Source of the DNA: Candidatus Nitrosopelagicus sp.
Lineage (GTDB): Archaea; Thermoproteota; Nitrososphaeria; Nitrososphaerales; Nitrosopumilaceae
Length of the DNA stretch: 43,663 nt
Assembly (NCBI GenBank): GCA_028345095.1
Contig: JAOMCQ010000009.1
Coordinates: 1-43,663, forward strand
Direction: 5' to 3'
In this document: piece after piece, positions 2 to 12,083 of the stretch
How the letters are laid out: every line of letters starts with the position of its first letter
Position numbering within the stretch: the stretch's first letter is position 1
Position numbers and translations under genes: made by a program
Notes under the pieces: generated by a model
The model's database searches: none
What the model was told of the DNA's origin: nothing
What the model saw: the letters and a program-made list of their open reading frames with translations, nothing else

Positions 2-1309
2 CTAGATTTTGGCATGAGTTTTGGAAAGCGTGGTGCCTATTTTGACGAGTTTATGAGTCCAAGGACAGCAGCAGGTTTACGTGATTTTTTTGAAATGGGA
101 ATGATTCCAAAATTAGATGGATTGTATAGAAATGATCTTAATGTAATGTTAGGAGAAGAACCAAAGCCCGCTGACATTGATGCTGTATTGTTAACACACG
201 CACACGCAGATCATGCTGACTACATTTCATTTCTACATGAAGATATTCCGATTTACATGGGTGATACTTGCAAGTTAATTCTAGAGGCAATTAAAGAAAG
301 AGGACAGAGAAGTTTTGAAAAAGAAATTTTATCATTCAAACCAAGAACAGCTGCAGGAATAGATAGAAAATCTGACGAAATTGAAAGGACTGTAAACACT
401 TTTCGAACTGGCGACAAATTCAAGGTTGGCTCTTTAGAAGTAGAACCAATTCATGTAGACCATTCAGTTCCAGGAGCGTATGGGTTCATCATTTACACAT
501 CATCTGGCCCTGTCGTGTATACTGGCGATATCAGGTTGCACGGAACAAGACCAGACATGACTGAAGATTTTGTAAAAAAGGCAGCAGAAGTTGATCCTAT
601 TGCACTGTTATGTGAGGGAACAAGAATTACGGATCCTGAAACTGACGAGTCTGAACAAAAAGTCTACAATGATTGTAATGCAAATATAAAAAATAATGAC
701 GGACTGGTAATTGCTGATTTTAATTTCAAAGATATGGATAGAATGCGAACATTTTATGATATTGCAAAGGATAATGACAGAAAATTTGTAGTAGATATCA
801 ACAATGTTGCATATCTAAAGCACTTATCAAAGGATCCACAACTAGGAATCCCTGATTTTTCAGACGAGCATATAGCAATTTTTAAGCCGCTAAAGTCATC
901 ATGGACAAAATCTCAAAAAGACTTGTTTGATGAACCAAATTTGATAACTGCAGATGATGTAATCAAAAATCAAGACAAGATGCTTTGTGCATTTTCATTT
1001 TGGAACTTTGGTTCTTTAATTGATATCAAACCAACCTCAAACTCACTATACATTCATTCAGCAAGTGAACCATGGGATGATGAGGGAGAATCTGATAAAA
1101 AACGAGTAAATTTGTGGCTAGAACACTTTGGTTTGAACAGACTTCAAAGCCATTGCTCAGGTCATTCAAAGGGCAGTTACCTCCTAGAGGTGGTAAAAAC
1201 AATTGATTCAGACATGCTTTATCCAATTCATACAGAACATCCAGAAGCATATGGGAAGGTTACTGACAAACTGACAATTGTACAAGAAGCAAAGAGGTAC
1301 GAGTTATAA
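2..1309 (+). CDS. beta-CASP metallo-beta-lactamase fold nuclease, RNase J/CPSF-like (5' end outside window)
   Basis: This is a zinc-dependent hydrolase of the metallo-beta-lactamase superfamily, probably a beta-CASP RNA/DNA nuclease. The HxHxDH zinc motif is HAHADH at residues 62-67 counted from the internal Met at base 14. Further ligands fit IHVDH and YTGDIRLHG. EGTRI followed by a beta-CASP-like segment (ADFNFKDMDRMRTFYD) and the C-terminal SGHSKGS and PIHTEHP motifs support the beta-CASP assignment. The frame stays open through LDFG before that Met (base 2 onward). LDFG is typical of strand 2 in this fold, so the true start lies left of the window and the CDS is partial. Its TAA stop shares one base with the next gene's ATG (TAATG), suggesting translational coupling to the SWIM-domain gene. 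Substrate unknown. Confidence 0.85.
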   Translation, partial: LDFGMSFGKRGAYFDEFMSPRTAAGLRDFFEMGMIPKLDGLYRNDLNVMLGEEPKPADIDAVLLTHAHADHADYISFLHEDIPIYMGDTCKLILEAIKERGQRSFEKEILSFKPRTAAGIDRKSDEIERTVNTFRTGDKFKVGSLEVEPIHVDHSVPGAYGFIIYTSSGPVVYTGDIRLHGTRPDMTEDFVKKAAEVDPIALLCEGTRITDPETDESEQKVYNDCNANIKNNDGLVIADFNFKDMDRMRTFYDIAKDNDRKFVVDINNVAYLKHLSKDPQLGIPDFSDEHIAIFKPLKSSWTKSQKDLFDEPNLITADDVIKNQDKMLCAFSFWNFGSLIDIKPTSNSLYIHSASEPWDDEGESDKKRVNLWLEHFGLNRLQSHCSGHSKGSYLLEVVKTIDSDMLYPIHTEHPEAYGKVTDKLTIVQEAKRYEL

Positions 1310-3441
1310 TGAGTGACGAAGAAGAAGCTAAATTTAATAGATTACTTGAAGCTTTAGGAGAAGCAACAAATTCTGTTGAAGAAAAAATAAACAATGATGA
1401 TTTTTTAGAATTAATTGAAAAATTAAATAAAAAACATCCATTGATGTATCTTCCAGATTTATTGAATGATTTTGTTCAAGGTGATACATTAGTAAAAATG
1501 CTATTCAAACATCATCTAACTGAACACAGTAGAGTAACACAACTTTTTGAAAAATCTTTAAAGTTTAAACTCACACATAGAACCAAAAGTCTAACAAATT
1601 CTCAAGTAAGTGACGAAAAAAAACAAATAATTAAACAAGAAAATCTATCACACCCAAACATTGGTCCACGATATAACGAATTAACCACTTTATGCAAAAA
1701 TAATATTGAGATAATTAATTCAAATCTAATTCATAATGTAATTCGTGCATATACAATATTGTTATTTTTCCTAGAAAAACAAACTATCAAACATGATGAA
1801 ATTTCTACTCTATTGCCAAATATTATTGAAAATTATTCAAATTTAGTTCGTTCAAAACCGGAATTCAATCCAAATCTAGAAAATTTCATTGATGATAAAA
1901 GAATAGATAAAATTATCCATGAGTTAATTGTTTATGAACATATTTTTCCAGATGCAGATGATCCAAAATTATACACAATTTCGCCAAAATATCTCAAACT
2001 TCCCACTTTGATCAAAAACATTGTTACAAACAATGAAAAAGGAATATCATATCCCAGATTATTTCTTGAAATTCATAGAAAGCGTACGCTTTTTGATTTA
2101 ATTCCTAACAGTGGACTTGTAAAATCCGCAATTTTTGAATTAGAAGAAAAAAATGAAATTATACGAAAAAGTGGCCTGAACTCATTTCATGACCAATTTT
2201 TCATACCTAAAGAATACGAAATACAGCACTCAAGATTAGAACAATCAATCATCCAACAAGGCGAAAAGAAGTTCTTTGGAAGAAGAATTACTCCTAATCT
2301 TTTCATTTCTGAATTAAATCAGTTAACAAGAGGTGATTTTGAGCCTGAAGATGATCAAGTGACTAGAATTGCTGGAATGGTTTTATCTAATGCCCGTATG
2401 CTACAAGCCGACAGTCAAAAACCACCATTATTTGATTTCACAGTTGACATGAGTAATTATCAGTTAACTCCTGAACAACTCCGGGTTTTACAAGAAACTG
2501 ACATTCAATTAACATCAAATATTGTTCACATTTCTGTTATGATAAACGAAGATCTTGATCTTAGTTTAATTGAAAATATGTCTAGAGAAATACCTGAAAA
2601 TGAACAGGGATTAGTTATCTGTTTTAAAAAAATTGAAGACGAGAATCTAAATAATTTTCTAACAGAATACAAATCGATTCAGATAGTCGATGAATCAAAT
2701 TTCCGAAAATGGTGTGAAATCACGCCTATTATACCATGTAGATTGGGTTCTATTGCAAAAATTCGATATGGAGATAATGCAGGCCAGCTTGCACAAATTA
2801 ATTCCATAAACTTTGAATCAGGTCTAGCAGACATCAAAGTTTTTCCCTCAATGTATGATACTACGCAATACATCGGTAGTATGCAAGAAATTAGTTTCTC
2901 AAACGTAGATAAATTTCGTGAAATGTCTAACCGATATTATAATTTCTTACAATTGTTATTTGATGCATCATATGGTGATGAATTCAAAAATGTTATTCTA
3001 GATTCACAGGATTTTAGTAATGTGAATACTGAACATAACTTACAAAGTATTTCATGCCAATTTGAAAAGCATAAAGCAGAAATTGATTCTGGTGAAATGT
3101 TCTTAGCATCATGTAATTGCTTTATCTGGAAAGAATTTTCACATTCTGATGGATTATGTTCTCATTTAATTTATGCATACAATTTATGGTTTAAAGAATT
3201 ACTTGATATGGGTGAAACAAAAATCACTAATAAAATGTTACATGAATTATACACACTAAAACATAATATCTCTTCTCCATTATTAGCAGAAAAACACACG
3301 TGCCCAAATTGTAATTTTAGTATAACAACTATTCAGGGACTAAATGATTTCTTTGGAACTCGTATAATTAATGGAAAACCAATTCCACAATCATGGTGTA
3401 GAAGATGTCGAAAAAAACAAAACAAATACTATCAGGAATGA
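1309..3441 (+). CDS. SWIM zinc-finger protein with C-terminal four-cysteine zinc ribbon
   Basis: A 710-residue protein of unknown function. Near the C-terminus a SWIM-type zinc finger (CxC...CxH) is formed by C602, C604, C617 and H619. A second zinc site follows: C665/C668 and C697/C700 (CPNC ... CRRC). The N-terminal 590 residues are charged, probably helical, and not recognised. SWIM proteins are known partners of SWI2/SNF2 ATPases in prokaryotes. An SNF2-type helicase lies about 1 kb away on the opposite strand, so a joint role in DNA or RNA handling is a reasonable inference. The start overlaps the upstream nuclease stop by one base. The gene converges on the DUF3883 gene with only 7 bases between stop codons. 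Codon use looks more AT-rich than in the upstream nuclease gene. Confidence 0.75.
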   Translation: MSDEEEAKFNRLLEALGEATNSVEEKINNDDFLELIEKLNKKHPLMYLPDLLNDFVQGDTLVKMLFKHHLTEHSRVTQLFEKSLKFKLTHRTKSLTNSQVSDEKKQIIKQENLSHPNIGPRYNELTTLCKNNIEIINSNLIHNVIRAYTILLFFLEKQTIKHDEISTLLPNIIENYSNLVRSKPEFNPNLENFIDDKRIDKIIHELIVYEHIFPDADDPKLYTISPKYLKLPTLIKNIVTNNEKGISYPRLFLEIHRKRTLFDLIPNSGLVKSAIFELEEKNEIIRKSGLNSFHDQFFIPKEYEIQHSRLEQSIIQQGEKKFFGRRITPNLFISELNQLTRGDFEPEDDQVTRIAGMVLSNARMLQADSQKPPLFDFTVDMSNYQLTPEQLRVLQETDIQLTSNIVHISVMINEDLDLSLIENMSREIPENEQGLVICFKKIEDENLNNFLTEYKSIQIVDESNFRKWCEITPIIPCRLGSIAKIRYGDNAGQLAQINSINFESGLADIKVFPSMYDTTQYIGSMQEISFSNVDKFREMSNRYYNFLQLLFDASYGDEFKNVILDSQDFSNVNTEHNLQSISCQFEKHKAEIDSGEMFLASCNCFIWKEFSHSDGLCSHLIYAYNLWFKELLDMGETKITNKMLHELYTLKHNISSPLLAEKHTCPNCNFSITTIQGLNDFFGTRIINGKPIPQSWCRRCRKKQNKYYQE

Positions 3442-3448
3442 TTTATTT

Positions 3449-4414
3449 CTAATTTTTTGTAATCTGTAGTGATTCTGATTTTTTATCATAGTCACTATTT
3501 TCTAAGATATTTTTTATTGGATTTGGAATCAATATTGGTTCATCAGAGGTTTGATTTTGTAAATCAATTTTTGGAATAAAGTATATCCAATAATTATCTG
3601 GATATTTTTTAGCAATTTCCATCTCATTGTAACTCCAATGTATACTAAATTCTACATCCGTGGAACTTTTGACCTCAATGAATCTATCGTGATTTAGATC
3701 ATCAGATTTACCATCAAATGAGCGAATATCATATCCAGCATTTGCCCATTTTTCACTAATTCTCTCTACATTTTGTGCCTCTTTTTCACAGTCGATTTTT
3801 GTCAATCGCTCTTTTTCATATTTTAGAGCAATTTCTTCTCCAAGATTGCCTATTTTCTTCATAATTATCAAGGAATCATCAATTTGATTTTGAGAAATTT
3901 TTCTTTTTGGAAGTCCAACAGTTAATCTCTGAATTTTATCTGTGAATTTTTCATTAATGAAAATCTGTGTATCTTTTTTTTCTAATAATTTAATTTCATA
4001 CAACATTGGTAAAATTTCAGGATTCATACAAACACCAAAAATTTCATTTTTTGGAAACCAAAATTTAGAATCTTCTTCATGAAATTCTGCTAAAAGTGCT
4101 AAAACTACTTTTGATAAATTTCCATTCAAGAAACATTCTTCAATGAATAACTCCTCTTGTTTTTGATTTAAATCATAACCTTCATCATTAGATAATATTT
4201 CTTCTCCAAGTTCTGTAAGCATGAAATTATTATTTTCTAGTTTTAATATTTTCACGTCAAGACAAAATTTCTTAAATTCCTCATAATTTTGATAAGTATT
4301 TTCAATTACTGGCTGAATATCGAATGTCTTCATTACTTCTATTTCTGGTGATTGGTTTTCTACTTCATGTAACTTTACTACACGTAAAAAATTCGAAACA
4401 TGTCTAAGCTTCAT
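3449..4414 (-). CDS. DUF3883 (endonuclease-like fold) protein
   Basis: About 321 residues. The C-terminal third matches the DUF3883 / NO VEIN C-terminal pattern. It has a GNLGEE helix, then GYDIRSFDG, then FIEVKSS, then a YWIYFIP strand. The D ... ExK arrangement (D229, E247, K249 from the ATG used here) resembles the PD-(D/E)xK nuclease active site, so DNA or RNA cleavage is plausible but unproven. The N-terminal 180 residues look helical, possibly winged-helix. I chose the ATG at 4414 over a TTG at 4450 because it leaves only an 11-base overlap with the helicase stop, against 47 bases. It is the last gene of the leftward ParB-ParB-helicase operon. DUF3883 domains are often found fused to or beside helicases. 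Confidence 0.7.
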   Translation of the reverse strand: MKLRHVSNFLRVVKLHEVENQSPEIEVMKTFDIQPVIENTYQNYEEFKKFCLDVKILKLENNNFMLTELGEEILSNDEGYDLNQKQEELFIEECFLNGNLSKVVLALLAEFHEEDSKFWFPKNEIFGVCMNPEILPMLYEIKLLEKKDTQIFINEKFTDKIQRLTVGLPKRKISQNQIDDSLIIMKKIGNLGEEIALKYEKERLTKIDCEKEAQNVERISEKWANAGYDIRSFDGKSDDLNHDRFIEVKSSTDVEFSIHWSYNEMEIAKKYPDNYWIYFIPKIDLQNQTSDEPILIPNPIKNILENSDYDKKSESLQITKN

Positions 4415-6374
4415 TTTCTTTCTGTTTATGTAATTCTTTAAGGTGTTCAACTAGTGAATCATAATCAGCTTTCCATTCATCACTATCAGTTTTTATAATG
4501 TTTGAATCATAATTTAGTTCCTTTAGATCTTTACTTTTTAATATATTATGCATTTCTTCATTTTTAGCCCATAATCTATCATGAATTTTTTTATCAATGG
4601 TATTTGTTGCAATAATTTGATGATAAGTAACATTTGGAATTCCTTTACCATGTATCATTCCAATTCTGTGAATACGATCCATTGATTGCATAAATTGTGC
4701 ACCATTCCAATTTCTATCTAAATAAATTGCATGACTACAAACTCGTTTACCAAGAATATTTTTGTGTAATGATACAGCCTCTGCTAATGATGCAGGTGTT
4801 GCAATTAAAACTCTAGGGTTTGTATCATCTTTGAATTTTTGAATTCTTTCATCTCTGAGTGAGGTAGTGCCTTCATAATCTTTTGTGGGTTCTTTAGGAA
4901 CTCCTCCATGTACCAAAATTGGTTTTTCTCCTGCAAAAATTTCATCTGCAAAAACCTCCATGTTGTGCCTAAAACTAGACCAAATGAGCACTTTCTCACC
5001 TTTTTCCATTAATTCATGAGCGATTTGACCTGCTTCTTTAATTTTAGCAGGAATTTCTAATGTTGAATAATTTTTAATTTTATCATAAATTGGCAAATCT
5101 CCAATATCTAACATGTCAATTGGATCAGAATAATATCCAAATTCATCACTATCCACATCAAATGTTGTTGAATATTCTGCAAGCATGGAAGGATTAGATG
5201 CAGTCATTAAAAGACGAGTCATCTTTGCTCTCCTAAATTTTTGTAATCTAGATTGTTCTCTAAAGCTATTAATTTCCTCTAGTGTTTTTGCAGCAATTAC
5301 ATCATAAATCATTCTTTGAACAGGTAGTAATTCTACAGGATATTGCGGATAATCGGGGTTTGGTAATTGTAAATCTTTTTTTGTTATTCTACAATATAGA
5401 GGAAATAATGCATCCCGATATTTTTGTGATAAACCGCCTGTTCTACTGATATTTGTATTGTATTGTAATTGGTGACCTAACGGAGGTGTATCTGGCCACA
5501 AAAAAGTAATCTGTGTCCATAAATCTTTTGCATCATTTGGAATTGGTGTTCCCGAAAGAATAATTCTTCTTGTTGCATCTCCTGCAATATCTAATGCCAT
5601 TTGTGCATATCTTCCTAGTTTTGGATTTTTTATGTAATGAGATTCATCAATAATTAAAACAGTTTTAAATTTTTGAAGAAATTGACGAATCTCATACGTT
5701 TTTCTCATTGCAGTTGCAAAATGCATCAAAAATAATTCATAATGATGTCCTAGGTTTGATAATTCACTAACAATATCTCCTCGCAATCTTTTACTTTTTG
5801 GTTTTCTTCCAAAACATCCTTCAAACTCTTCTTCCCATGGAACAAATGCTGCTGTTGGTGAAATTACAAGAATTTTTTCAACAATTCCTTCTTTTAACCA
5901 CTTTGAAATTGCAGCATACGTGATAGTTGTTTTTCCACCTCCTGGAACAGAAAAATTTGCAGCATTTCCTACTCCAAGAATATGTTCAACAGATTCTTTT
6001 TGATATGGTTTAAGTTCACGTAAAAATGTAGAAGGTAATTCTATCTCATGTTCATCTTTAGATTTTATTTTAATGCCATTTTCTCTTGCTAATTGGTAAT
6101 CCTCTTGAACAGTTTTTGACTCTTCATTTTCTTTCTTTAATTCATTACAAATCTCAAGTTTATCGCTAAAATACTCAATTGTCCATTTTATCGTATTTCG
6201 AAATTTTACGGAATTATTTGTGCGTGGAAAAATGAATGAATCTCCATGCTTCTCATATCCTCCCTCTTTTAGCCAATCTAAATCATAATATTCTTTTTGA
6301 GAATCATCACTTTTCTCATATTTTAATTCTAAATTTCTATAGACATCATAACATAATGAATGCAAAAAAATCAC
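4404..6374 (-). CDS. SNF2-type superfamily 2 DNA helicase/translocase
   Basis: A 656-residue SF2 ATPase with both RecA-like domains. Visible motifs: LKPYQKESVEHIL (Q-like, about 121-133), Walker A PGGGKTT (about 144-150), DESH at 243-246, LSGTPIPN at 273-280. In the second domain there are VLIWSSFRHN, VLIATPASLAEAVSLH and the arginine finger motif QSMDRIHRIG. The DESH box and the 'dRiHRiG' motif place it near Snf2/RapA translocases rather than strand-separating helicases. The N-terminal 115 residues are unrecognised. It starts at a GTG that overlaps the upstream ParB-like gene's TGA (GTGA), indicating tight coupling. Its 3' end overlaps the DUF3883 gene. A nuclease/translocase pairing typical of defence systems is inferred from context. 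Confidence 0.88.
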   Translation of the reverse strand: MIFLHSLCYDVYRNLELKYEKSDDSQKEYYDLDWLKEGGYEKHGDSFIFPRTNNSVKFRNTIKWTIEYFSDKLEICNELKKENEESKTVQEDYQLARENGIKIKSKDEHEIELPSTFLRELKPYQKESVEHILGVGNAANFSVPGGGKTTITYAAISKWLKEGIVEKILVISPTAAFVPWEEEFEGCFGRKPKSKRLRGDIVSELSNLGHHYELFLMHFATAMRKTYEIRQFLQKFKTVLIIDESHYIKNPKLGRYAQMALDIAGDATRRIILSGTPIPNDAKDLWTQITFLWPDTPPLGHQLQYNTNISRTGGLSQKYRDALFPLYCRITKKDLQLPNPDYPQYPVELLPVQRMIYDVIAAKTLEEINSFREQSRLQKFRRAKMTRLLMTASNPSMLAEYSTTFDVDSDEFGYYSDPIDMLDIGDLPIYDKIKNYSTLEIPAKIKEAGQIAHELMEKGEKVLIWSSFRHNMEVFADEIFAGEKPILVHGGVPKEPTKDYEGTTSLRDERIQKFKDDTNPRVLIATPASLAEAVSLHKNILGKRVCSHAIYLDRNWNGAQFMQSMDRIHRIGMIHGKGIPNVTYHQIIATNTIDKKIHDRLWAKNEEMHNILKSKDLKELNYDSNIIKTDSDEWKADYDSLVEHLKELHKQKENEA

Positions 6375-7564
6375 TTACCTATTTCTTCTAATTTCTTTGC
6401 ACTTCTTAAAATTCTCTTAATCACATCTTTTACTTCTGGTTTTTGCAGATCAGGATTTTGATAATCAATTGCATCTAGGAAAGTTGCTGCTTTTCGTAAC
6501 ATCTCTGCAACCTTGTCTTTGTTTTCTTCTGCACCCAATTCATCCCCTGCTTCTTCAAAAATGGTTCCTATCTCACTATTTTCTCCATCTTCCTCATCAG
6601 GTTCCTCAGGTATTGGTTCTTCAATACCAGCTTTACCTTGACATTTTTCTCCTAAAGAAATTATTTTTTTAATTGCAGTATCAAGTTGAATTCTTACCAT
6701 TCTCTCAATTTTTCGAAGTTCTCTATGTCCTATTCCATCATAAATTAAACAAAACACTGCGAATTTTATTTTTTGTCTAGTTGTTGTGTCTACTCCCATT
6801 CTATCTTCTGTAACAATTATTTTTTGTAATTCTGCAAAATGTTCTACTTTTCTATCAGCTAGTTTGTAGTCGCCTGGTTTACCTACATGAACTAAATATT
6901 CATCTATTCTTTCTAGTCTATCTAGTTTTAATTCAATTTCATCTTTATCATCTATACCATAAAGTGTTTTAGCTATTTCAGATGTTGTTATTCCTGCATT
7001 TACTCCTTGTCTTAATTTTAATAATTCATTCATTGGACCATATCTTAAAATTTCATCTTTTCCTAATTGTATTCCTGCTTCTAGTTTCCAAAGATCATTT
7101 TTGTCAACGTCACCAGGTAATCTTCCAACTTTTATGAATTTGAATTCATCATTACTTGTATCTTCAAATAGTTTGGAAAGAATTGTCATTCTTCTATTTC
7201 CATCAATTACGTAACCATCTTCAGTGATTATTCCTGGTAACCACTGTCCTCTATCCTTAATGTCATCGTAGGTTCTCTTTGATTCATTAACGTCTAAATT
7301 CCAAAGTAAGTTTTTGATTTTCTTTGCATCTTCTTTATCTTCAGGTTTTAATTCTCCGCCCTGTTTTTTTACTTCATTGATATATTCAGCAGCAAATCTT
7401 CCATTTCTAATGTTATAGTATAGCAATTCAATAGGTAATCTGTAAACCTGAAGTCTTTTCTTCTCACCTTTCAGATTTACAGGAATGGAATCATTTTCCT
7501 CACAATCATTAGTTGTGATATACTCATCAATTCGTGTTTTATTATCACTATTCAATTCAGACAT
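6371..7564 (-). CDS. ParB/sulfiredoxin-like protein with HTH (copy B)
   Basis: 397 residues. The N-terminal domain has the ParB-N/Srx-like layout: LPIELLYYNIRNGRFAAEY (about 43-61), GQWLPGIITEDGYVIDGNRR (about 106-125), with DGNRR matching the family GxRR motif. A helix-turn-helix-like stretch follows (GITTSEIAKTLYGI). The C-terminal third is acidic (EEPIPEEPDEEDGE), then a helical end. ParB-like domains bind or hydrolyse CTP in partition proteins, and related folds occur in DNA-modification proteins such as DndB. No partition ATPase (ParA) is seen here, so plasmid partition is unlikely. It overlaps the helicase start by 4 bases and lies 45 bases after its paralogue. The exact biochemical role is unknown. 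Confidence 0.7.
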   Translation of the reverse strand: MSELNSDNKTRIDEYITTNDCEENDSIPVNLKGEKKRLQVYRLPIELLYYNIRNGRFAAEYINEVKKQGGELKPEDKEDAKKIKNLLWNLDVNESKRTYDDIKDRGQWLPGIITEDGYVIDGNRRMTILSKLFEDTSNDEFKFIKVGRLPGDVDKNDLWKLEAGIQLGKDEILRYGPMNELLKLRQGVNAGITTSEIAKTLYGIDDKDEIELKLDRLERIDEYLVHVGKPGDYKLADRKVEHFAELQKIIVTEDRMGVDTTTRQKIKFAVFCLIYDGIGHRELRKIERMVRIQLDTAIKKIISLGEKCQGKAGIEEPIPEEPDEEDGENSEIGTIFEEAGDELGAEENKDKVAEMLRKAATFLDAIDYQNPDLQKPEVKDVIKRILRSAKKLEEIGK

Positions 7565-7609
7565 AGATCATTCAGATACATTTCTGTGATTTAACAATGA
7601 TCACTAGAT

Positions 7610-8788
7610 TCAATTTTTCATAATTTTATCTATAATAGAATAAAGTAAATCTAGTCTTTCTTTAGAATCTGAATTTTTTAATGATGAATGCTTTGGGTCT
7701 ATTATTTCTAAATTCTTTATTGCTCGGTTTATCAGTTTTATTGGTTCTCCAGCTTCTGATTTTGCTTTCAAACTATCTAGTGAATTAATGAAGATGGTTC
7801 GTGCTGGAGTGTATGCATCATTTTCTTCTGCGTTTAATTTTTTTGCAAGTTTTTCTCCAGCTTTTTCAGGTTGACAATATTTTTCTGATTCTCTGAATAT
7901 GTTTGCTTTGAGTTGCTCATCAATCAAGATATCTTTTAATTTTCGAAGAGTACGCACATCAATTCCATCATGGATCAACTGAAATGCAATTCTCTTAATT
8001 TTTGTAATATCACTTGGGTTAGGATAAGTCTTTTTTAATTCATCAAGTTTTTTTCTAAAATCTGTAAAATGCTCTGTGATTCCTTCAACTTTTTTAAAAT
8101 TATTTCGCTCTCCGATATAATCTAGATACCGAACAATTAATTCAAGTACTTCCAATTTCTCTAAGACTTCTTTTTCTGTATAATCACCATACAGTGTTTT
8201 TGTAATCTGTAATGCTGTTAGCCCTGCATCAATCCCTTGTTTAAATTTAAGTAATGTGTTAATTGGCCCATAATCAAGCTGAACATTTCTTGATAATTGT
8301 ATTCCTGCTTCTATTTTCCATAAATCAATAGGTGAAATGTTTGGAGGAAGTCGTGCTACCATCAAATCCTTAAAGTTTGAATCACTTTCGAAGATGTTCT
8401 CTATAATTGACATTCTTCTATTTCCATTAATGACTTGACCTCCATGAGTACAGACGCCAGGTTCTCTTTGACCATACTGACGAACATTTTTTTCTAAAGT
8501 CATACTTTGTTTTGGATCTAATGAAATCAATAAGTTCTGAAGCTCTTTTCTGTCCTCTTTATTTTCAGATTCAAGCTCTCTTCCCTTCTTATTTTTTAAT
8601 TCTTGATATTCAGCAGCAAATCTTCCATTTTTAATATTGTAAACTAGATTTTTCAATGGAATCTTGTAAACTTGTAAATCTACATTCTGACCCTCAAGAA
8701 GAACTGAATGTGTTTTTGGCAGTGTTGCCTGAGGATTATTTGTGATATATTCATCGATGATTTTTCCATTTGACTCCTCAAAAGACAT
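7610..8788 (-). CDS. ParB/sulfiredoxin-like protein with HTH (copy A, paralogue of next gene)
   Basis: 392 residues, the first gene of the leftward operon. It is collinear with the following gene: both begin with an IDEYIT segment, both have NI(R/K)NGRFAAEY at about 51-61, and both have a GNRR box at 121-125 (here NGNRR instead of DGNRR). Both also have DLWK(L/I)EAGIQL in the middle and an HTH-like segment (ALQITKTLYG). The C-terminal halves have diverged: this copy lacks the long acidic stretch. The replacement of the box Asp by Asn may mean a different catalytic ability. An AT-rich TATA-like element lies near 8827-8834. No Shine-Dalgarno is seen before the ATG. A heteromeric pair acting with the helicase is inferred. 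Confidence 0.7.
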   Translation of the reverse strand: MSFEESNGKIIDEYITNNPQATLPKTHSVLLEGQNVDLQVYKIPLKNLVYNIKNGRFAAEYQELKNKKGRELESENKEDRKELQNLLISLDPKQSMTLEKNVRQYGQREPGVCTHGGQVINGNRRMSIIENIFESDSNFKDLMVARLPPNISPIDLWKIEAGIQLSRNVQLDYGPINTLLKFKQGIDAGLTALQITKTLYGDYTEKEVLEKLEVLELIVRYLDYIGERNNFKKVEGITEHFTDFRKKLDELKKTYPNPSDITKIKRIAFQLIHDGIDVRTLRKLKDILIDEQLKANIFRESEKYCQPEKAGEKLAKKLNAEENDAYTPARTIFINSLDSLKAKSEAGEPIKLINRAIKNLEIIDPKHSSLKNSDSKERLDLLYSIIDKIMKN

Positions 8789-8830
8789 GTACGATCAATT
8801 ATATCATGTGTAAAAAGTATGATCTAATTT

Positions 8831-8843
8831 AAAATAAAAAAAA
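8831..8843 (-). terminator. T-run terminator of the small-gene operon
   Basis: Just downstream of the 125-residue gene, the minus strand reads a run of nine T, an A, then TTTT. This is a typical archaeal oligo-T terminator. It sits next to the TATA-like element of the ParB-like operon, so the two leftward units appear separate. Confidence 0.55.
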
Positions 8844-8852
8844 GGATTGAAT

Positions 8853-9230
8853 TCAGGATTCACGCCTGATATTTTTTCCAGCCTCTGTAATCTTGTGTAT
8901 CTCTGGGTCTAACAGATAGTATGTCGCAAACATCATTTGCGCTACCAGTCTGACTCGTCCAGGAGTTCCAAGCGGATACTTTTTTTCCATTTTTTCGACA
9001 AACCCTTCTACTAACGGCATCAAGTGTGTAGTCTCTGGAAGGTCTGTACATCTACCCATGTAGATGTGGCAGTATCTGACGAGATTGCTAATTATCTCAA
9101 ATCCCGCAGTTTTTTGTTCCAGTGCTAACGTCCACTTGTCAAGACCGCCTGTAATCCATGCTCGAATTTTGTATCTTTCTTCCAGACGCTCTTTTTCAGC
9201 AGTCTTTGGTTCCAAGTACGGCGAGGTCAT
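8853..9230 (-). CDS. Hypothetical protein, 125 aa (third gene of small overlapping operon)
   Basis: Not recognised. The protein is mostly helical, mixed-charge and soluble-looking, with Trp and Met/His-rich stretches (RAWITGGLDKWTLALEQK; RYCHIYMGRC). No transmembrane segment or obvious catalytic motif is seen. Its ATG shares one base with the preceding gene's TAA (TAATG), and a GAGGTG Shine-Dalgarno-like element lies about 10 bases before it at 9241-9246. That differs from the leaderless genes nearby. Composition is visibly richer in G+C than the adjacent ParB-like genes. Such tightly packed small genes are typical of viral or plasmid modules, but this is inference only. Confidence 0.55.
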   Translation of the reverse strand: MTSPYLEPKTAEKERLEERYKIRAWITGGLDKWTLALEQKTAGFEIISNLVRYCHIYMGRCTDLPETTHLMPLVEGFVEKMEKKYPLGTPGRVRLVAQMMFATYYLLDPEIHKITEAGKNIRRES

Positions 9231-9580
9231 TAGTTGAACTCACCTCTTGTCTCGTACGCTAGATCAAAGTTTCTCTCGCAGATTGTACAGACTGGTCTGT
9301 GTATTCGTAGCAATCTAATATTGCCACAGCCAACACAGTCAGTTTGCACCAAGAAATCCTTTGCAGGAGAAAAAGACGAGAAGTTACTTTGTTTTTTCCA
9401 AAGTAGTCTATACCTTGCAGTTTCTCTCTCTCTTTTTGCTTCAAGAATTGATTTCTTTTCTGCGATTTTTTGCTCCAGATAGTTTTGCGTCTGAATTTTA
9501 TCTTCGATGTACTTTTCTAGCGAGTTAGTTTCGATTTTTGTTTGTAGTTTTTGTCGATTGTACCGTCTTTGCAAGCTCAC
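9230..9580 (-). CDS. Small coiled-coil zinc-ribbon protein, 116 aa
   Basis: Not recognised as a named family. The N-terminal 65 residues are highly charged and probably a coiled coil (repeated K/E/R/Q). The C-terminal part has two CxxC pairs (CVGC ... CTIC) separated by about 16 residues, which would form a zinc ribbon. It starts at a GTG that overlaps the upstream TGA by 4 bases (GTGA), with a GGGGAG element about 9 bases upstream. A nucleic-acid-binding or scaffold role is possible but not shown. Confidence 0.55.
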   Translation of the reverse strand: MSLQRRYNRQKLQTKIETNSLEKYIEDKIQTQNYLEQKIAEKKSILEAKRERETARYRLLWKKQSNFSSFSPAKDFLVQTDCVGCGNIRLLRIHRPVCTICERNFDLAYETRGEFN

Positions 9581-9777
9581 TTGTAAAAGTCTCCCCGCGG
9601 CATACTTGATTTACTTCTTACGAAGTTTATGCCATGGATTAGCTCGTCAAAGTCTTCATCCCAGATGTATAGCTTGGTTGTTCCATACTCTAAGATGACA
9701 GCGTCGTTTCCTTTTTCGTCTTTGTAGTCATAGAGGCTGATTCTATTTCCATTGAACAGTTGTTTTTCGTTTTCCAT
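9577..9777 (-). CDS. Hypothetical acidic protein, 66 aa (first gene of small operon)
   Basis: A short acidic protein, likely beta-rich, with repeated aromatic/acidic stretches (LYDYKDEKGNDAVILEYG, LYIWDEDFDELIHGINF). No known family was recognised. I prefer the ATG at 9777; an alternative TTG start lies at 9792. A TTAAATTA-like element near 9808-9816 could be its promoter. It overlaps the next gene by 4 bases, so the three genes 9777 to 8853 probably form one transcript. Confidence 0.45.
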   Translation of the reverse strand: MENEKQLFNGNRISLYDYKDEKGNDAVILEYGTTKLYIWDEDFDELIHGINFVRSKSSMPRGDFYK

Positions 9778-9959
9778 TTTTGATGACAACAAACTACGGC
9801 ACCGTCTAATTTAAGAACATCTCATAGATTGCGATTAGTAATCTTAGGTTAAGTAATACTGAAACTTGGTATAGAAAACTTCACTGTCATTTTTGAGTAA
9901 AACACGCTATTTTCCGCTATTTATTTACGCCTAGCCTAAACTAGCGCATATTCAAAATT

Positions 9960-9966
9960 CTTATAC
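9960..9966 (+). promoter_or_regulatory. TATA box for the UbiB-kinase operon
   Basis: CTTATAC is centred about 29 bases before the ATG at 9992, giving a predicted start of transcription 0-3 bases before the ATG (leaderless). The 9778-9991 interval between divergent operons otherwise shows only an AT-rich sequence and a short GATTA-G-TAATC palindrome at 9833-9843. Confidence 0.5.
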
Positions 9967-9991
9967 TCAAATCATAATAGAAACGATCACT

Positions 9992-10387
9992 ATGACACAA
10001 GAAATTGACATCCCTTTAGACCTGAAACGAGTCGTACTATTAGGTGCTGAAGAGACAAAACTTGGTGATAAGAAAGGCGCTCTAAAACAATACCGTAAAG
10101 GCAATCTACACATTCGAGAATACGAAGATCGATTAACAGTTCATACCGATAAGGTAGACCCAAGAGAAGACCCAATTGGACATCTAATCCATGATGCACA
10201 AGAAGTACTCATTGGATTAGCAGGTGCAGCACTTGGCGGTGCAGCAATTGGAACTTATATTTACAAAATGAAAAAAAATTCTCCATATAGAAAACAGCAA
10301 GCAGTAATTGGTGGACTTGCAGCATCTCTAGCAACAGGATATGCATCATACAAAATATCTAAAAAAATAAAGGAAAAAATGGATTGA
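9992..10387 (+). CDS. Hypothetical membrane protein, 131 aa, first gene of UbiB-kinase operon
   Basis: Not recognised. The N-terminal 70 residues are soluble and charged. The C-terminal half has two glycine/alanine-rich hydrophobic helices (LIGLAGAALGGAAIGTYIY and AVIGGLAASLATGYASY), each followed by lysine-rich ends. The charge pattern fits a two-pass inner-membrane protein with both termini in the cytoplasm. The next ORF begins 4 bases later and the UbiB-type kinase follows, so it may assist that membrane-associated kinase. The function is unknown. Confidence 0.65.
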   Translation: MTQEIDIPLDLKRVVLLGAEETKLGDKKGALKQYRKGNLHIREYEDRLTVHTDKVDPREDPIGHLIHDAQEVLIGLAGAALGGAAIGTYIYKMKKNSPYRKQQAVIGGLAASLATGYASYKISKKIKEKMD

Positions 10388-10532: not shown

Positions 10533-12083
10533 ATGGTTTTTGCAAGAACTATCTACGTTTTCATCAAATTACTGCCATCAATTTTGGCACTAAGAAAAGA
10601 TCGCGTCTTATGGATATCTGATGACAAAAAAAATGTAGATGAAGAGCGATTCAAGCGTCATGCAAGAAGAATCCTTAACACATGCATCTCACTAGGTCCA
10701 GTCTACATAAAATTTGGTCAATGGCTATCATCAAGAGCTGACATTTTACCAGAACCATACCTCAAAGAGTTATCAAAATTGCAAGATGAGGTTCCAGCTG
10801 AATCCTTTGATAAGGTAAAACCTGTAATCGAACGAGACATTGGTAAAATTGATGAAAAGTTTGATTCTCTTGATACTACCGCACTATCAGGTGCCTCACT
10901 AGGTCAGGTATATCTTGCAACTAAAGATGGCCAGCAGGTTATCGTTAAGGTAAAGCGCCCGGGAATTGAAAAGGTTGTAGAAAAGGATCTCAAGGTACTA
11001 ATGAAGATCATTCCATTTGCAATGAAGTTTGTAGATCCAAACTTGAGATTCTCAATCATTCCTATAATGAAACAGTTTGTAGAGTCAATGAATGAGGAGT
11101 TGGACTATACAAAAGAGTCTGATAATCTAAAAACCATAAAGAAAAACATGGAGCCATATGACAATGTAGTCATCCCTGAAGTCCATGATGATTATTCTAC
11201 AAAAAACATCATAACAATGGAGTATATTCCAGGAATCAAGGTTACGGATATCCAATCATTAGATGAGAAGGGTATAGACAGGCAAAAACTGGTCATTGAC
11301 GTCCACAAGGTTTTCTTTACGATGCTTCTAAAACACTCCATATTTCATGCTGATCCACATCCAGGAAATATCTCGGTAAAAGATGATGGTACGCTCATTT
11401 TGTACGACTTTGGAATGATTGGTAGATTAAATGATGAGATTAGAATCAAGTTAGTCAGACTATACCTTGGATTAATAGAAAAAAATCCACCTCGTACAGT
11501 CAATGCAATGGACGAACTTGGAATGCTTGCACCTGACTTTAATCGTGAAGTGATTGAAAAGGGAATTGAGTTATCAATCAAATCAATGTATGGCAAGAAA
11601 CCAGACGAAATGGAGGTTGAACAATTAATGAATTTGGCAAATAGGACAATGTCCAAGTTCCCATTCAAGTTACCAAAGCATTTGGCTCTATACTTGAGAA
11701 TGTCCACCATCATAGAAGGCATATACCATACACACAAAGTTGATTTCAAGTTCATCAAGGTATTAGGACAAATTTTAGAAGAAGAATCACTAATCAAAGA
11801 CGCATACATTGAAGAAATTAAAAGATCATTTTCACGTTTTGCAAAAACAATTGAGGATACATTAACGATTGCACCTGAAATTAAAAAATTCATGGATGAT
11901 ACAAAAATGATGCAGCAACAATCTGGTAAAAAGAATAATTCAATGTTAGCCGGAAGTATTTTTGCTGCAGCCGTTTTTCTTGGTTCTGCATTTATGTTCC
12001 AGTCAAATGAAACCGTTGGAGTGCTAGGAATGATCGCATCAGGCGTCATAATTGGAATTTCTGTCTTATTTAGGAAGAGATAG
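10533..12083 (+). CDS. ABC1/UbiB/ADCK-family atypical kinase
   Basis: 516 residues of the UbiB/COQ8 atypical protein-kinase-like family. Seen: the KxGQ-type motif KFGQWLSSRAD (60-70), the glycine/alanine-rich nucleotide loop SGASLGQVYLA (119-129; the family usually has AxASxGQV), and K139 in VIVKVKRPG. The catalytic-loop equivalent is FHADPHPGN and the metal motif is YDFGMIGRL. Two C-terminal hydrophobic helices (about 466-486 and 493-511) anchor it in the membrane, as in family members. In bacteria and mitochondria these proteins support quinone biosynthesis. In thaumarchaea a role in menaquinone or isoprenoid lipid handling is inferred only. It is the third gene of the 9992 operon. Confidence 0.88.
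   Translation: MVFARTIYVFIKLLPSILALRKDRVLWISDDKKNVDEERFKRHARRILNTCISLGPVYIKFGQWLSSRADILPEPYLKELSKLQDEVPAESFDKVKPVIERDIGKIDEKFDSLDTTALSGASLGQVYLATKDGQQVIVKVKRPGIEKVVEKDLKVLMKIIPFAMKFVDPNLRFSIIPIMKQFVESMNEELDYTKESDNLKTIKKNMEPYDNVVIPEVHDDYSTKNIITMEYIPGIKVTDIQSLDEKGIDRQKLVIDVHKVFFTMLLKHSIFHADPHPGNISVKDDGTLILYDFGMIGRLNDEIRIKLVRLYLGLIEKNPPRTVNAMDELGMLAPDFNREVIEKGIELSIKSMYGKKPDEMEVEQLMNLANRTMSKFPFKLPKHLALYLRMSTIIEGIYHTHKVDFKFIKVLGQILEEESLIKDAYIEEIKRSFSRFAKTIEDTLTIAPEIKKFMDDTKMMQQQSGKKNNSMLAGSIFAAAVFLGSAFMFQSNETVGVLGMIASGVIIGISVLFRKR

Follow-up and report, generated by a model that had tools for sequence, protein, structure and literature searches.

We analysed a window of 43,663 nucleotides, one whole contig of Candidatus Nitrosopelagicus sp. 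(bin of 895 kb, 66% complete, contamination 0.17%), which terminates inside an island carrying genes for two ParB-fold proteins, an SNF2-family motor and a predicted DUF3883 nuclease. Comparison with related loci supports the view that ParB-SNF2-DUF3883 is a co-conserved, patchy and horizontally moving cassette found in defence islands. Because it lies almost always beside a DNA-methylating enzyme, it is probably a new kind of restriction module, driven by a motor and directed against foreign DNA that lacks the mark. We put the probability that it is a defence cassette linked to restriction-modification at about 0.85. The narrower proposal, which we favour with less assurance, is that a modular restriction-modification system powered by a motor relies on the cassette either for restriction itself or for enhancing it.

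The five genes to which a sequence-only reading had drawn attention, four leftward ones and a convergent SWIM gene, were intact at the positions and with the spacings it had reported (Table 1). The ParB 1 and ParB 2 genes are separated by a 45-base gap, the ParB 2 and SNF2 genes share a 4-base GTGA overlap, and the SNF2 and DUF3883 genes overlap by 11 bases if the latter begins at an internal ATG (4414), which is probably its true start. The SWIM gene is convergent with the DUF3883 gene across a 7-base gap. The last base of the MBL gene (position 1309) is also the first of the SWIM gene, so these two genes appear to make up one rightward unit, MBL-SWIM, which meets the leftward ParB-ParB-SNF2-DUF3883 unit tail to tail. 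Two small genes (8853-9580) on the strand of the cassette may be co-transcribed with it; the first had no significant family match in Pfam and PADLOC searches, and a relative of the second was found in only one of 20 other genus genomes, where its island also contains an MBL gene. A repeat search of the window returned the ParB paralogues and otherwise short, probably chance, matches, a promoter scan gave no more matches than shuffled sequence, and no tRNA att site was found in the window.

Table 1. Positions of the cassette, its neighbours and the island edge in the window
Feature	Position	Strand	Remark
RNase J-like MBL metallo-hydrolase gene	14-1309	+	neighbouring accessory, outside the core
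SWIM-domain protein, C-terminal zinc ribbon	1309-3441	+	paired with the MBL gene, outside the cassette
DUF3883/NOV_C PD-(D/E)xK nuclease (predicted), 333 aa	3449-4450 (to 4414 with the internal ATG as start)	-	
SNF2-family ATPase/translocase, 656 aa	4404-6374	-	PF00176
ParB-fold protein 2, 397 aa	6371-7564	-	directly upstream of SNF2
ParB-fold protein 1, 392 aa	7610-8788	-	opens the cassette; tandem paralogue of ParB 2
Small gene, possible accessory	8853-9230	-	by position only: upstream of ParB 1 at a distance of 64 bases
Small zinc-ribbon-like gene, possible accessory	9230-9580	-	
Conserved flank gene, 131 aa	9992-10387	+	marks the chromosomal island edge with the kinase gene
Kinase gene	10533-12083		conserved partner of the 9992-10387 flank gene

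The family assignments of the sequence-only reading were borne out, those of SNF2 and NOV_C by Pfam, that of ParB by AlphaFold and Foldseek and that of SWIM by its CxC...CxH pattern. The SNF2 protein (PF00176, 3e-17) has a subfamily-specific Walker A motif, ANFSVPG[GS]GKT, and the further motifs DESH, SGTP and QSxDRIHRIG; all are intact, and the motif residues are invariant across 12 homologues. The window thus contains an SF2 motor with intact ATPase motifs, as ATP-dependent restriction-modification demands. A nuclease with an intact catalytic site, another component to be looked for, is indicated by motif conservation in the DUF3883 protein (NOV_C PF13020, 1e-16), in which G201, E205, D241, E259-x-K261 and E276, the pattern of PD-(D/E)xK enzymes, are invariant across 29 sequences. 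Its N-terminal region is helical/winged in a model with a pLDDT of 91. Foldseek searches with this model gave weak partial matches to the C-terminal part, including Hjc resolvases and FokI, and no match with E <= 0.001, and the DUF3883 sequence profile found nothing useful among PDB sequences. The predicted nuclease identity rests on Pfam and motif conservation, the fold support from Foldseek being weak.

The two ParB proteins are 39% identical tandem paralogues, a relationship that the sequence-only reading had overlooked, as it had the MBL gene (14-1309). Neither matched a Pfam or PADLOC family, and their sequence profile found nothing useful among PDB sequences. An AlphaFold model of ParB 2, built with 36 aligned relatives (pLDDT 90, pTM 0.85), had Thermus Spo0J/ParB (1vz0) as its best Foldseek match (E 7e-4, probability 1.00), and pNOB8 ParB-N and Noc were also matched; the probabilities for 1vz0, 5k5d and 7ol9 (0.98-1.00) indicate a ParB-N fold with an HTH domain. 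Judged by this modelled fold, the leftward pair belongs to the ParB superfamily. A conserved motif of the family, DG-x-(V/I)(D/N)GNRR, occupies what we take to be the place of the GERR box of ParB. Tandem ParB copies were also observed at three other loci (L090, L102, L123). The ParA partner that ParABS partition requires was absent, as the sequence-only reading had claimed: Pfam detected none among the proteins encoded at 14-10387.

To follow the cassette beyond the window we used a sample of 300 genomes of the class and a survey of 84,980 species' genomes with an SNF2 profile, which yielded at least 514 SNF2 relatives; the best 80 of these were examined as loci. The ParB family was present in 6 of the 300 class genomes, that of the window among them, and in none of the 11 other genus members of this sample. 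In the five other ParB-bearing genomes the order ParB-SNF2-DUF3883 was kept at about 25-50% identity. Among the best 80 of at least 514 loci, automatic adjacency placed ParB directly upstream of SNF2 in 75, a number that rises to 77 with two cases of overlapping ORFs, and DUF3883 lay directly downstream of SNF2 in 57. Co-conservation with a patchy distribution, which the sequence-only reading had named as the support its proposal needed, was thus observed. Its five-gene grouping was upheld for the leftward genes, whose adjacency far exceeds chance, and not for SWIM. Chance co-location is ruled out by the 77/80 adjacency together with the methyltransferase distance profile described below.

The 80 best loci, most of them bacterial, span about 20 phyla of bacteria and archaea, and copies were also detected on Enterococcus and Rhizobium plasmids and on IMG/VR contigs. 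Their SNF2 tree requires a minimum of 32 phylum changes, a sign of horizontal movement. We found no description of the ParB-SNF2-DUF3883 trio in the open-licence literature searched, in Pfam or in PADLOC. The earlier claim of an undescribed defence module is retained without its archaeal restriction; a system confined to archaea is ruled out, most of the best 80 of at least 514 loci being bacterial. Two variants of the locus were seen along the way. On an Exiguobacterium plasmid (L084:7926-11697) the gene after a ParB-family gene encodes a PLD-SNF2 fusion, in which the phospholipase D-type domain may stand in for the nuclease. Genes of about 280-290 aa lie just upstream of ParB in an alphaproteobacterial/actinobacterial subset (L080, L083, L113, L128, L151, L160) and may form one family.

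The sequence-only reading had remarked on the lack of a methylase. This holds locally in the window and not for the family: a DNA methyltransferase was found near the cassette in 68 of the 80 loci, close thaumarchaeal relatives included, and in 67 it lay within 3.5 kb of SNF2. The classes were C5 in 25 loci, DUF1156-type in 18, D12 in 16, N6/N4 in 7 and IIG in 2, and the SNF2 tree requires no fewer than 15 changes of class. Counted by distance from the cassette edge, 60 methyltransferase genes lay within 2 kb, another 10 between 2 and 4 kb, and 2 between 4 and 10 kb. This profile, which served as an internal control across the 80 loci, corresponds to a density of 0.21 per kb within 2 kb against ~0.004 per kb beyond 4 kb (~50-fold). 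Pfam searches of the 143 immediate neighbours detected N6/N4 (14), D12 (14), C5 (13) and NaeI (4) families, and single HaeIII, EcoO109I, BglII, DpnI-like and Vsr matches.

Restriction-modification enzymes surrounded the cassette in other loci, in agreement with the defence setting that the sequence-only reading had suggested. The REases adjoining or near it were NaeI, HaeIII, EcoO109I, NgoPII, BglII and DpnI-like. Thaumarchaeal loci carried an N6/N4 methyltransferase with EcoO109I (L010, L012), a D12 methyltransferase with HaeIII (L011), a Type IIG with an N6/N4 enzyme (L009) or an NgoPII REase with a C5 methyltransferase (L066). Type III Mod-Res genes immediately precede ParB-SNF2 on the E. 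faecium plasmid p1818-a and the IMG/VR contig L171, and in E. lactis a Type I system (HsdM/S/R) occurs at a distance of a few kb. DUF3883 adjoining SNF2 was detected neither in the NaeI loci checked (L118, L149, L153, L164) nor in L082 and L171, the Type III loci. Since DUF3883 is often missing beside NaeI or Type III Res, the nuclease slot looks exchangeable, and these gene arrangements suggest a position that different enzymes may fill. One thaumarchaeal island with the cassette also encodes a protein of 998 aa that combines an N-terminal Mrr domain with an AAA_5 (McrB-like) one (L088:7906-10902).

We compared the insertion site of the window with those of other genus members. In one genus mate (G309) the kinase and 131-aa flank genes, 93-95% identical to those of the window, lie beside a different island containing a ParB-SNF2 pair (31-36% identity), an NgoPII REase, a C5 methyltransferase and an MBL gene. 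The flank pairs of G305, G213 and G267 (62-81% identical) have core ABC-transporter genes directly next to them and no island, and the contigs of G302, G303 and G168 stop at distances from a few hundred bases up to about 2 kb from the flank genes. The kinase-flanked site is a variable defence hotspot, empty in more distant genus members. Contamination of the bin is an unlikely source of the island, given the 93-95% identity of the flank genes to those of the genus mate and the contamination value of 0.17%. No methyltransferase was seen in the window, which is cut by the contig end, and the C5, N6/N4 and N6_Mtase families were absent from the 66% complete bin. Its one D12 enzyme, encoded close to amo-like genes, was set aside as the missing partner; it is probably the group's orphan GATC enzyme. 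The window SNF2 protein grouped (SH-aLRT 100) with those of L087, L088, L090, L089 and L091, of which the first three have IIG/N6-N4, N6/N4 and C5+NgoPII partners, respectively; none was found at L089 and L091. The methyltransferase of the window may lie beyond the contig end.

The MBL protein (PF12706, 6e-12) is RNase J-like with an intact HAHADHAD site. Its homologues, 50-93% identical, occur in thaumarchaea (L064-L078, L010, L088), where they adjoin Dnd, DISARM, Type I R-M, HEC-06, NgoPII R-M, EcoO109I and the present cassette, and the gene looks like a general, promiscuous accessory of thaumarchaeal DNA-modification defence. The CxC...CxH pattern of the SWIM protein is invariant in six homologues. 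Its relatives in the 300-genome sample occur in other genomes than those of the ParB family, the window excepted, which rules SWIM out as a cassette component. An MBL homologue lies beside SWIM also at L038 and L040. There (L038:4568-15396, L040:743-9223) SWIM is accompanied by an AAA_23-type ATPase, small genes, an SF2 (ResIII/SNF2-like) helicase and the MBL gene, and at L038 additionally by an HNH gene; the L040 cluster was assigned solely from similarity in gene order and in the beginnings of the sequences. The SWIM-AAA_23-helicase cluster is possibly a second undescribed defence cluster.

The co-conservation and order of the genes, their intact catalytic motifs, the ParB fold, the linkage to methyltransferases and the apparent exchange of nucleases are what these comparisons show. 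In the mechanism we propose, a separate, exchangeable DNA methyltransferase would mark the host genome as self. The ParB-fold protein would bind DNA that the state of the mark or site reveals to be foreign, probably acting as a nucleotide-gated clamp, and would load the SNF2 motor, which would then translocate along the duplex. Cleavage would fall to a PD-(D/E)xK nuclease, either DUF3883 or, elsewhere, a Type II REase such as NaeI or a Type III Res subunit. Clamp loading, translocation, cleavage, phage protection and the component that reads the mark are elements that we infer. Tentatively, and with rather less than even confidence, we suggest an unnamed pan-prokaryotic restriction class in which a ParB nucleotide-gated sliding clamp would replace HsdS/Mod, couple recognition of unmodified DNA to an SNF2 motor and an exchangeable nuclease, and fit any methyltransferase class.

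Other accounts of the same loci have to be weighed against this restriction module. The cassette may be an accessory or back-up to a resident Type I, II or III system that cuts or stalls first, ParB-SNF2-nuclease then finding ends or unmodified DNA and destroying the rest. Its recurrence beside complete Type I, II, IIG and III systems fits such a role, and the joint presence of DUF3883 and a complete Type II pair at L101, L105 and L090 means that the cassette may only assist another REase. Many loci, however, have a methyltransferase and no recognised REase, a weak objection, as Type II REases are hard to recognise; we regard the accessory role as unlikely. DUF3883 could instead be the ordinary Type II REase of the adjoining methyltransferase, with ParB and SNF2 serving the methyltransferase or its expression (regulation, clearing of nucleoprotein). 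A survey of archaeal R-M systems counts DUF3883 presumptively as Type IIR (PMC10609329), and a methyltransferase does adjoin in most loci. This account nevertheless predicts the reverse of the data, in which ParB-SNF2 is the most constant element (77/80) and DUF3883 the replaceable one (57/80), and DUF3883 also adjoins the complete pairs at L101 and L105, so we consider it distinctly unlikely.

Two further accounts concern the ParB protein and the copy in the window. Instead of defending the host, ParB might help to partition or maintain a mobile element, or the cassette might shield incoming DNA (DarB-like counter-restriction). Such a role would accord with the ParB fold, the plasmid and IMG/VR copies and the protection of phage P1 DNA by SNF2-methylase pairs (PMC5512222). 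It is opposed by the lack of ParA in the island, the invariant nuclease site and the adjoining restriction enzymes, and we give it a very small chance. That the cassette of the window genome is a partnerless remnant would explain the methyltransferase families missing from window and bin; yet the ORFs are intact, the motifs are conserved, the contig ends inside the island and the near relatives L087, L088 and L090 do have a methyltransferase, and we attach little credence to it.

The ParB component thus belongs to no Pfam or PADLOC family, yet the cassette is found in about 20 bacterial and archaeal phyla, Enterococcus plasmids included. Should it prove to be a plug-in restriction motor, an ATP-driven partner of many 'orphan' methyltransferases and Type II systems would have gone unrecognised, and a ParB clamp would gain a role in immunity. 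The cassette makes it testable whether a ParB clamp reports DNA methylation state to a translocase.

Several known systems share parts with the cassette. Fusions of SNF2 to DUF3883, encoded in R-M operons together with HEPN proteins, were reported in 2013, and DUF3883 was there called a novel REase domain (PMC3710099); that report is a single table entry on fused proteins, in which no ParB partner is named and the separate cassette is not surveyed. An SNF2-type motor in a defence island is common to the cassette and to DISARM, Dpd and Zorya (DrmD, DpdE, ZorD). ZorD was the best PADLOC match of the window SNF2 protein (1e-25 over part of the protein), and DpdE-type (6e-13) and DrmD-type (2e-9) cross-matches were also obtained; these concern SNF2 only, and ZorA/ZorB, DpdA, and DrmA, DrmB and DrmC are absent. 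No Dnd/Ssp model matched among the eight island proteins, so that the earlier statement that the genes do not fit Dnd, Dpd or DISARM stands, and Pfam and PADLOC searches of the island detected no PglZ, BrxC or DUF499 ATPase of BREX or BREX-related systems. Hma consists of HmaA helicase, HmaB methylase and HmaC ATPase (PADLOC 2021, PMC8565338). The HmaA model weakly matched both the window SNF2 protein (5e-7, ~110 residues) and DUF3883 (9e-4), so Hma seems to join both modules, and HmaB models matched D12 methylases adjoining the cassette. The weak HmaA matches fall on two separate genes, and HmaB and HmaC matched nothing among the window island proteins, so that membership of Hma is rejected; moreover, unlike Hma, the cassette keeps its modules as separate genes, nearly always has a ParB-fold protein and varies in methylase class. 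With ParB/Spo0J/Noc, DndB and ParB-methylase proteins the cassette ParB shares the ParB/Srx N-terminal fold and a GxRR-type motif, but it is without ParA, outside Pfam and PADLOC and fixed to SNF2. A further parallel in components is ATP-dependent restriction-modification of Types I and III, with which the cassette has in common an SF2 motor, a nuclease, in most loci a methyltransferase and, probably, translocation before cleavage. In contrast to these systems, its SNF2 motor belongs to a distinct subfamily, a ParB-fold protein seems to take on recognition, a separate and exchangeable gene encodes the nuclease, the methyltransferase class varies, and the cassette is itself found behind complete Type III Mod-Res genes.
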